A stretch of DNA of 37,035 bases from Pantanalinema sp. (GTDB lineage Bacteria; Cyanobacteriota; Sericytochromatia; S15B-MN24; UBA4093), in contig DATNQI010000053.1 of NCBI GenBank assembly GCA_036704125.1, positions 1 through 37,035 of the forward strand, read 5' to 3'. A program made the position numbers and the translations under genes. Of the stretch, positions 15,634 to 20,860 are shown piece by piece. A model generated the notes under the pieces. The model worked only from the letters and a program-made list of their open reading frames with translations, did not search any database and was not told the DNA's origin. The first letter of the stretch is position 1, and each line of letters opens with the position of its first letter.

Positions 15634-17520
15634 TTACTTGCGGTTCTTGACGTACTTGTCCAGGAAGTTGGCCGTGGCCGTGAAGCTCTTGATGCGGTTG
15701 GTCAGCTTCACCACCCCGTGGCCCTCGTCGCCGAAGAGCAGGTACTCGACCGGGTGCTCCTTCTCGCGCAGGGTGGCCACGATCTGGTCGGCCTCGGTCT
15801 TGGGCACGCGCGGGTCGTTGGCCCCCTGGACGACCATCAGGGGCGCCTTGATCTTGTCCACATGGTTGATGGGCGAGACCTCCTCCAGGAACTCCCGGTC
15901 GGTCTCGAGGCTGCCGTACTCGGCCTCGCGCAGCGGGCGGCGCCAGGGGCCGGTGTTCTCCAGGAAGGTGACCAGGTTGGACATGCCCACCGTGTCGACG
16001 CCCGCCGCCCAGAGATCCGGCAGCATGGTCAGGGCCGCGAGGGTCATGTAGCCGCCGTAGCTGCCGCCCATGATGGCGATCTTCTTGGGGTTGGCGTAGC
16101 CAGAGGCGTTGAGGTAACGCACGGCGTACTCGACGTCCTTGATGGCGTCCTTGCGCTTGGTGGTGTCGTCCAGGTGGGTGTAGGTCTTGCCGTAGCCTAC
16201 GCTACCCCGGATGTTGAGGGCCATCAGGCCGTAGCCGCGGCTGAGGTAGTACTGGAAGGAACTCGCGAAGTCGGGGCGCTCCTGGCTCTCGGGTCCCCCG
16301 TGGACGTAGACGATCACGGGAAGGGACTTGTTCTTGATCGCTCCCTGGGGCAGGTACATGAAGGCCGGGATCGAACGGCCATCGAACGACGGGTACTTGA
16401 CCAGCGAGGGCATCACGAAGGTGCTGCGCGGGATTCCCGCCAGCGAGCTTTTGGTCACCTGGCTCGCGACCTTCCTGGCCAGGTCGTAGGTCCACACGTC
16501 GGTGTTGTGCTGGGGGCCGCTGAAGGTAAAGACCAGGCTCTTGCCGTCGGGTGAAAAGCTCAGGCGGTCGATGACGCCCTGGGGCAGGCCCGTGACCCGC
16601 TCGGACTTGGGCGAGCCGATGCCGCGCAGGTAGAGATCCGAGTAGCCGTCTCGGTTGGCGAGGTAGGCGATGCGATCGCGCTGGTCGCTCAGCTCGATGC
16701 CCTCGACCTCGATGGCGTCACGGGTCATGAACATGACCTTGGCGGCCGGGTCGCGCGGATCGAGACTCGCCAGGCACGTGAACTCGCGGCCCTCGTCCGA
16801 GGCGAAGTACAGCTTGCCGTCCTTGCCGAACGAAACCGACTCGTAGTTGGCGTTGCCCGTATGGGGCGTGAGCAGGCGCTCGGTGCCCGTCTGCAGATCC
16901 AGCAGGTAGAGGTTCGCGTTGGAGGGGGTGTCCACCCGGCTGAAGACGACGCTCTTGCCGTCGGGGGAGAAGGCGAGGGCGTAGTTGGTGCCGTCCTGGG
17001 TCAGCACCCGCTTGGCCTTGCGGGTCGAGAGGTCCATCACGTAAAGGTCGAAGAAGGCGACGTTACGGCTGTTGGCCGCATAGACGATCTGCTTGCCGTC
17101 AGGGGAGAAGGCGCCGAAGGTGTGGATGGCCTTGGGGTTGCTGGTGAGGGCGACCGTATGCGAACCGTCGGAGGAGATCAGGTTGAGCTGGGTGCGCTCG
17201 TCGCCGCCCGTGTCCTTGGCAAACAGGAACCAGTCACCCTTCGGCGAGCGGACAGCCCCCTTCACCGCATCGGGGTAGAAGGTCAACTGCTCGGGCCAGC
17301 CCCCCTCGCGCGGCACGCGCCAGAGCTGCGGCACGCCGGTGATGTTGGTCGAGAACACGACCTGCTTGCCGTCGGGGGTGAAGACGCCGGCGCTCGCGGT
17401 GCGCATCTGGAGGTACTGCTGGATCGGATAGGCCGCCAGGGCGCTCTGCTGCACCGAGGCGAGCATGGCGCCCGTGACCAGGGCGGCGCCCAGGGCCCGG
17501 GCGATGGGATTCATGGGCAT
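15634..17520 (-). CDS. Exported S9-family prolyl oligopeptidase/acylaminoacyl-peptidase
   Basis: A 628-residue secreted serine peptidase. Residues 1-30 are a signal peptide ending QQSALAA. Residues 35-360 form a beta-propeller with repeated PDGK motifs (49-52, 140-143, 186-189, 324-327), which gates access to the active site. The alpha/beta-hydrolase domain (370-628) has HGGP near 407-410, nucleophile S487 in GGSYGGY, D569 in GANDPRVP and H601 in GDEGHG. It would cleave short peptides in the periplasm or outside the cell. ATG 17520 follows AAGGAG by 5 bases. It is a single gene, downstream of two inverted-repeat elements that fill the gap to the DMT transporter gene. Dipeptidyl peptidase versus acylaminoacyl-peptidase activity cannot be separated from sequence alone. 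Confidence 0.94.
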   Translation of the reverse strand: MPMNPIARALGAALVTGAMLASVQQSALAAYPIQQYLQMRTASAGVFTPDGKQVVFSTNITGVPQLWRVPREGGWPEQLTFYPDAVKGAVRSPKGDWFLFAKDTGGDERTQLNLISSDGSHTVALTSNPKAIHTFGAFSPDGKQIVYAANSRNVAFFDLYVMDLSTRKAKRVLTQDGTNYALAFSPDGKSVVFSRVDTPSNANLYLLDLQTGTERLLTPHTGNANYESVSFGKDGKLYFASDEGREFTCLASLDPRDPAAKVMFMTRDAIEVEGIELSDQRDRIAYLANRDGYSDLYLRGIGSPKSERVTGLPQGVIDRLSFSPDGKSLVFTFSGPQHNTDVWTYDLARKVASQVTKSSLAGIPRSTFVMPSLVKYPSFDGRSIPAFMYLPQGAIKNKSLPVIVYVHGGPESQERPDFASSFQYYLSRGYGLMALNIRGSVGYGKTYTHLDDTTKRKDAIKDVEYAVRYLNASGYANPKKIAIMGGSYGGYMTLAALTMLPDLWAAGVDTVGMSNLVTFLENTGPWRRPLREAEYGSLETDREFLEEVSPINHVDKIKAPLMVVQGANDPRVPKTEADQIVATLREKEHPVEYLLFGDEGHGVVKLTNRIKSFTATANFLDKYVKNRK

Positions 17521-17553
17521 GGATTCTCCTTGCACGAGGGGGGACCGAAACTA

Positions 17554-17630
17554 GAGCGTCTACAAAACTGTTCATTCAAGCCGCCCATGGCGGCCAAAGT
17601 CCGTAACATGCCTGGTTTTGTTAGATGCTC
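17554..17630. repeat. 77-bp inverted-repeat element, copy 1 (attC-like or REP/MITE-like)
   Basis: Outer arms begin GAGCGTCTACAAAAC and end GTTTTGTTAGATGCTC and pair over 15 bp with one bulge and one G.T pair. An inner hairpin GCCGCC/GGCGGC lies at about 17580-17593. About 82% identical to copy 2. The right arm contains GTTAGAT, which fits the integron attC R' consensus GTTRRRY; the left arm (GTCTAC) is one base short of the matching R''. Confidence 0.75.
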
Positions 17631-17670
17631 TCAGTCTAGAAAGAGGGCCCGCAAATGGCAAGCTTAGTCG

Positions 17671-17748
17671 GAGCGCCTGACGAAACTGTTCCTCCTAGCC
17701 GCCCACGGCGGCCAACGATCGTAACATGCCAGGTTTCGTCAGGTGCTC
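17671..17748. repeat. 78-bp inverted-repeat element, copy 2, overlapping the DMT gene stop
   Basis: Arms GAGCGCCTGACGAAAC and GTTTCGTCAGGTGCTC pair over 16 positions, including one G.T. Relative to copy 1, two stem positions change on both sides (T-A to C-G, A-T to G-C), keeping pairing. The right end supplies the last codons and TGA stop of the DMT gene (17739-17741). Confidence 0.75.
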
Positions 17749-18620
17749 TTTTCGCGGGTGAGGAGCACCCCTGCCGCCAGGATCAAGCCCCCGCCGAGCC
17801 ACGTGGCCCAGGTGGGCAGGTCGTGGAAGAAGAAGATGCCGAGCACGGCGGCGATGAACGGGGTGAAGAGCGAGACGATGCTCGCCGTCGTCGCGCGGGC
17901 GTGCTGGTAGCCCAGGGTCATGAAGACCTGGGCCACCGTGGCCGAGACGGCCACCCCCGACAGCAGGCCCCACTCGAGCGGGCTAGGGTGGCGGTAGCCC
18001 GGCACCATCAAGGGCAGGGTCAGAAGCGAGGCGACCGCCGAGAAGTACAGCACGATCACCCAGGGGCTGTTGCGGGCGGTGGCTCGCTTGACGGCCACGT
18101 AGGCGAAGGCCGCGAACAGGCCCGAGCTTAGCGCGACCAGGGCCTCCCAGTGCAGAAAGCCGCCCTTGGGCCCCACCACGAAAGCCACCCCCGCGCTCGC
18201 GAGCAGAAGGGCGAGGACGCTCGGGCGGCTCAGCCGCTCGCCGAGCACGAAGGTCGCGACGATCGCGGTGAAGAACGGCGAGGTGTAGTTCAAGAGGACC
18301 GCATCGGCCAGGTAGAGCGTCGAGATGCCGAAGAAGAAGGCGGTGAGCGCCGCCCAGCCGAGCACCCCGCGCCAGACGAGGATCCCCTTGTCCCGGGCCG
18401 CGAAGGGCTGTCCCGTGAGGGCCATCCAGGCGGCGATCATCAAGAGCCCCCCGAAGGCGCGGAAGAAGGAGACCTCGAGGAAGGGCAGGGTGGCGCTCGC
18501 CTGTTTGACGAAGGCCCCCATGACGGCGAAGCACACGCTCGAGCCGAGCATGAAAGCGTACCCCTTGCGCTCGGAATGGGCGGAAGGAAGCATCGGCAGG
18601 GCGTTTGACGTGTCGGGCAT
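17739..18620 (-). CDS. DMT-superfamily (EamA) transporter
   Basis: A 293-residue protein with ten predicted membrane helices in two EamA repeats (about 20-150 and 160-288), each with the usual Gly-rich final helix. Family members export amino acids, nucleosides or other metabolites; no substrate can be assigned. The ATG at 18620 has no ribosome site, but an extended -10 (TGCTAGAAT) ends 6 bases upstream, implying a leaderless mRNA. The last codons and stop lie inside an inverted-repeat element, so the natural C-terminus may have been reshaped by its insertion; the end (LLTREKST) is nevertheless of normal family length. It is divergent from the thioredoxin-reductase-like gene. Confidence 0.9.
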   Translation of the reverse strand: MPDTSNALPMLPSAHSERKGYAFMLGSSVCFAVMGAFVKQASATLPFLEVSFFRAFGGLLMIAAWMALTGQPFAARDKGILVWRGVLGWAALTAFFFGISTLYLADAVLLNYTSPFFTAIVATFVLGERLSRPSVLALLLASAGVAFVVGPKGGFLHWEALVALSSGLFAAFAYVAVKRATARNSPWVIVLYFSAVASLLTLPLMVPGYRHPSPLEWGLLSGVAVSATVAQVFMTLGYQHARATTASIVSLFTPFIAAVLGIFFFHDLPTWATWLGGGLILAAGVLLTREKST

Positions 18621-20823: not shown

Positions 20824-20860
20824 CCCCGCCCCCTGGTGGGGCGGGGCTGGGGGTGGGGGG
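20824..20860. repeat. GC hairpin overlapping a four-tract G-quadruplex motif
   Basis: CCCCGCCCC (20824-20832) can pair with GGGGCGGGG (20838-20846). The plus strand 20838-20860 also has four G-runs (4, 4, 5 and 6 G) with loops of one, two and one base. It lies just past the stop of the HD-GYP gene. Hairpin and quadruplex would compete. Confidence 0.55.

Follow-up and report, generated by a model that had tools for sequence, protein, structure and literature searches.

The described systems closest to the elements reported here are insertion sequences (ISs) of the IS5 family, bacterial MITEs, integron attC sites and REP-type extragenic palindromes. ISs of the IS1031 group prefer TNA targets and carry a 3-bp repeat (PMC12016507). 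The attC sites contain an unpaired central spacer beside their R boxes (PMC8946536), and REPs are given a length of 20-40 bp in PMC3733652. We analyzed two inverted-repeat elements in a window of 37,035 nucleotides from Pantanalinema sp. (contig DATNQI010000053.1, the whole stretch of DNA under study). Sequence comparisons make it highly probable (roughly 0.92) that both are copies of a MITE of IS5 lineage, 77-78 bp long with 16-bp terminal inverted repeats, which would have been moved in trans.

Copy 1 (17554-17630, minus strand, 77 bp) extends from GAGC to GCTC, with boundaries placed by HMM, and copy 2 (17671-17748, minus strand) measures 78 bp. With the covariance model of the family they score 97.1 bits (match 17552-17632) and 93.5 bits (match 17669-17750), respectively. 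The first-pass annotation had described two elements of these sizes separated by 41 bp. The elements are real, being 82% identical by BLAST, in the same orientation and with arms that pair across 15-16 bp, and only the spacing needs correction, to 40 bp. The compensatory changes by which the two copies were said to differ (T-A to C-G, A-T to G-C) are indeed present on both sides of the arms. So is the indel at a third stem pair, which is ambiguous because copy 1 lacks one base of the left arm.

The left terminal inverted repeat of copy 1, read directly from the sequence, is GAGCGTCTACAAAAC (17554-17568, plus strand, one base deleted), and the right one, an exact match to the search pattern, is GAGCATCTAACAAAAC on the minus strand (17615-17630). 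The latter includes the heptamer GTTAGAT; its counterpart in copy 2 is GTCAGGT, both as previously annotated. The terminal repeats of copy 2, GAGCGCCTGACGAAAC (17671-17686, plus strand) and GAGCACCTGACGAAAC on the minus strand (17733-17748), match the pattern with two mismatches each. In the window, this arm pattern is found three times, versus 0.22 matches expected by chance. Between the arms, folding identifies an inner hairpin, GCCGCC-CAT-GGCGGC in copy 1 (17580-17594, plus strand; the stem is 97% paired over 34 copies) and GCCGCC-CAC-GGCGGC in copy 2 (17698-17712, plus strand, also supported by the 34-copy alignment). A one-sided bulge, CAGGCA on the minus strand (17609-17614 in copy 1), is near-invariant, with 1.0% non-majority cells in 34 copies. 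For either strand, the folding energy of both copies beats 200 of 200 shuffles (z -3.6 to -5.8).

The element ends point to the origin. A plasmid search for distant matches to the family consensus gave a single hit, 23 exact bases of one end (E-value 0.05), in a Microvirga lotononidis plasmid (NZ_CP141050.1). With these 23 nucleotides ends an intact IS of the IS5 family, 845 bp long, which reads TTA-GAGCGTCTAACAAAAC ... GTTTTGTTAGACGCTC-TTA and has GAGCGTCTAACAAAAC at both ends. The MITE ends, GAGCRYCTAACAAAAC, share 16 of 16 positions with both ends of this IS. Its transposase contains PF13340 and PF01609 and belongs to NF033580 (IS5 transposase). Eight homologous ISs with ends of the same type were found, among them annotated family elements of ISAzba7, ISMch9 and ISMra6. 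Hosts of the homologous ISs are Microvirga, Paracoccus, Roseomonas, Azospirillum, Methylorubrum, Methylobacterium and Deinococcus. The end match is specific, since no such ends are present at the IS5_3 transposase loci of nearer relatives. It counts against the assignment that the IS with identical ends belongs to a different phylum from the MITE host, while the loci of those nearer relatives are without such ends.

An exact 3-bp duplication, TTA or TAA, flanks all nine ISs with these ends that were examined (9/9). This fits the TNA rule of the IS1031 group. Flanks of the MITE agree. Among 36 non-composite copies, an A precedes GAGC in 33 and a T follows GCTC in 32, giving a family consensus of TNA-GAGC...GCTC-TNA. 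The middle bases of the 3-bp repeat match in 23 of 36 copies versus 14.3 expected (z 3.7, by permutation for each direct-repeat register, and one of about 150 comparisons). By itself, the middle-base match would be moderate evidence for target duplication; MITE flanks and IS duplications together support it in a way that we consider convincing. The duplication in the MITE is an eroded, TNA-like 3-bp flank that is significant at the middle base, and few copies retain it exactly. Both window copies are eroded, with CTA (17551-17553, plus strand) and TCA (17631-17633) around copy 1 and TCG and TTT around copy 2. The 3-bp TWA/TNA duplication and the GAG-type ends are those of an IS5 source of the IS1031 type.

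As is typical of a MITE, the element is shorter than about 500 bp (76-99 bp across the family), contains no transposase gene, occurs in many dispersed copies and has terminal repeats in common with an autonomous element, the IS of NZ_CP141050.1; an autonomous element is lacking in its own genome. Searches of the host assembly (96% complete) with PF13340, PF01609 and NF033580 detected no IS5_3/PF13340 transposase. The sole DDE_Tnp_1 match in the genome was considered as an autonomous partner and rejected, as it is a remnant and ends of this type are absent. The degenerate DDE transposase fragment at L091 (G000:C60:31557-34748) has an open frame of 196 aa and lacks MITE-type ends. The mobilizing enzyme can therefore only be inferred.

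BLAST, covariance model, terminal-repeat pattern and profile searches together identify about 60 copies, scattered through the genome of 3.5 Mb, which answers positively the proposal to look for further copies by BLASTN. Counted in this total are incomplete copies and a longer variant of 97-99 bp that has an additional hairpin. BLAST alone gave 49 places, a few of which are the opposite arm of the same palindrome, and the covariance model accepted 47 copies, a number equal to that of the candidates scored. The family was absent from 38 relatives searched with BLAST and from 97 relatives searched with the covariance model. No relative turned up when genome and viral collections, from which records of the host genome itself were possibly left out, were scanned for exact pattern matches, and a distant search of phages was likewise negative. 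The closest non-composite pair is only 95% identical (median pair 79%) and the assembly contains no matching transposase, which suggests that the family is probably old, immobile and stranded in its host genome.

Several repeat structures accompany the family. The 97-99 bp form (L042:8058-8155, L048:2884-2981, L059:2113-2209 and L060:2078-2176) has an extra segment with CCTGCGGCT, which may be a second hairpin and may be ancestral. About 11 MITE copies (in L024, L025, L026, L029, L041-L044 and L058) are embedded in a G-rich repeat, as palindromes nested in palindromes. Most of them sit at a single fixed site in that repeat, and MITE and G-rich repeat therefore appear to have multiplied together as a composite. 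Five identical GAACGTCTAACGAAAC ends, which at first resembled IS ends, turned out to be element copies nested in the G-rich repeat. A second dispersed hairpin family, CCCCGCCCCCCGGTGGGGCGGGG, is represented in the window at 20824-20846, just past a terminator-like hairpin behind a tRNA-Ser gene, and at about 76-87 sites in the genome. Many of its hairpins precede a GGGGTGGGGGGAT stretch, and inverted pairs are frequent; among 20 genomes searched (19 of them relatives), this family is confined to the present one.

The two MITE copies in the window are flanked by an EamA transporter gene (17739-18620, minus strand, Pfam EamA) and an S9 peptidase gene (minus strand, 15634 to 17520 or 17535). Copy 1 is just upstream of the peptidase gene. 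The EamA gene ends in copy 2, with its stop codon TGA (17739-17741, minus strand) inside the terminal repeat of the element. The second Pfam domain encoded by this gene is complete. When gene prediction used a codon model derived from the window genes, no copies were found inside predicted genes. A first gene model had placed copies within long reading frames, which were antisense shadow ORFs and disappeared with the window-trained model.

In 17 of the 34 non-composite copies that face the 3' end of a gene, the stop codon falls precisely at the edge of the element, as TAA or TGA directly before GAGC or as TA completed by the first G of the element. Spacers without an element offer a median of 2 TWA sites per 95 bp. 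Such placement can be attributed to the rarity of TWA targets in a GC-rich genome and to the purging of coding insertions, and it is tolerated since an in-frame stop is preserved, by a duplicated TAA or by TA with the first G of the element. The enrichment at stop codons was therefore discarded as a sign of function. The observations suggest why a TWA-targeting MITE would gather at stops in a GC-rich genome, namely by target scarcity combined with stop regeneration.

In the scenario that we favor, mobilization by an IS5-family transposase, the enzyme would have been ISAzba7/ISMch9/ISMra6-like, with IS1031-type target choice, and would once have been encoded elsewhere in the genome or lineage. 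It would have bound two matching MITE ends and moved the short element in trans, with insertion at a TWA trinucleotide and duplication of those 3 bp. Insertions inside genes were presumably purged, and those at stops would have been kept where an in-frame stop was preserved. Covariation of the arms would follow from the match of both ends to the same transposase and would have been carried along by subfamilies. What was directly observed comprises the end sequence that the MITE has in common with complete ISs, the 3-bp duplications flanking those ISs, the dispersed copies, their intergenic placement and the present absence of the transposase.

The covariation calls for closer scrutiny, as it had originally been interpreted as selection for structure. 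Family-wide, it is real: changes on both sides of a pair were counted in 26 cells versus 9.4 in shuffles (34 copies). The interpretation was too strong, because paired ends that have to fit a single transposase, with variants passed on within subfamilies, can account for it without a functional RNA. Singleton changes per column amount to 0.64 in the hairpin stem, 0.69 in the terminal repeats and 0.67 in the linkers, in a test that undercounts in highly variable columns. These near-equal values give no sign of extra constraint on resident copies. Variation common to several copies spares the stem of the hairpin and the CAGGCA bulge, and the constraint on the core appears to have been exerted on the lineage as it spread. 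Since the bulge and the GC hairpin are near-invariant in copies that otherwise differ by about 20%, the hairpin could be an active part of the element, either as a single-stranded or cruciform feature needed by the transposase or as a 3'-UTR RNA module adopted by genes that end in the element; we consider this unlikely.

A structured RNA module under selection at mRNA 3' ends, acting as stabilizer or attenuator whatever its transposon origin, is the alternative that survives best, and even so it appears quite improbable. The near-invariant core, the many copies that start exactly at stop codons and the excess of arm covariation over shuffles are all in its favor, as is a preponderance of A.C mismatches, which read G.U on the other strand, over G.T mismatches in the arms (about 31 versus 14 by hand count, with the outermost pair and the fixed 7/78 pair excluded). 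Yet no Rfam match was obtained at the gathering threshold or up to an E-value of 10, and copies occur in both orientations relative to genes (19 opposite, 13 same). The similarity of singleton changes in stem, terminal repeats and linkers also speaks against it, and the placement at stop codons is explained by the scarcity of TWA targets. Alignment columns 7 and 78 hold the same A.C mismatch in 29 of 34 copies (on the opposite strand, G.T). This fixed mismatch sets the two ends of the element apart; the commoner A.C mismatches elsewhere in the arms likewise point to a weak strand bias in tolerated mismatches.

Of the readings initially offered, the MITE-type hairpin has stood, structured RNA and REP/RAYT are improbable, and that of attC remnants of a chromosomal integron, single-stranded hairpins recombined by an integron integrase, was refuted and has become very improbable. 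It had been prompted by RYYYAAC and GTTRRRY motifs in the arms of an imperfectly paired hairpin. The MITE does resemble attC sites in being palindromic with R-box-like heptamers in its arms, but there is neither an integrase nor an integron arrangement. The window had been described as free of an integrase, and in the whole genome, too, no integron integrase exceeds the cut-off, the best partial match to TIGR02249 scoring 95 bits versus 265. Copies are single and dispersed instead of forming cassette arrays, and GTTRRRY is found 22 times in the window versus 27 expected by chance. Unlike in attC sites, pairing and conservation extend past the R boxes to GAGC and GCTC, next to TNA-like flanks; AAAAC and GTTTT beside the boxes are paired, and the sole conserved bulge, CAGGCA, lies further in. 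Identical ends bound complete ISs, and the attC-like boxes are no more than the CTAAC/GTTAG stretch of an IS5-type terminal inverted repeat. The present case disposes of a false lead towards an integron. Since terminal repeats of the IS5 type mimic the R boxes of attC sites, it is advisable to look for target duplications and IS ends around dispersed palindromes with such boxes before calling an integron.

REP-type extragenic palindromes mobilized by a RAYT (Y1) transposase, which like the MITE copies are short, palindromic, intergenic and dispersed in many copies, are hardly credible here, because the search for a RAYT transposase that had been proposed found no Y1_Tnp (PF01797) in the genome, the TNA flanks and the length and match of the terminal inverted repeats suit a DDE transposase, and an element of 77-99 bp exceeds the REP length given in PMC3733652.

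With the ISAzba7/ISMch9/ISMra6 lineage of IS5 (NF033580, PF13340 and PF01609), the MITE shares the terminal repeat GAGCGYCTAACAAAACC and the 3-bp TWA target. The ISs of that lineage are about 845 bp long and carry a transposase gene, whereas the MITE has 76-99 bp and none, and its core, with a GC hairpin, is unrelated. Compared to known bacterial MITEs (Nezha of cyanobacteria, Correia of Neisseria and MITEAba12), the present family differs in sequence and source family, and the assembly contains no autonomous partner. Like them, it consists of short, non-coding, hairpin-forming elements with inverted ends, present in tens of intergenic copies and, by the reading preferred here, mobilized in trans. 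The family is new, and of an ordinary kind that is already known.
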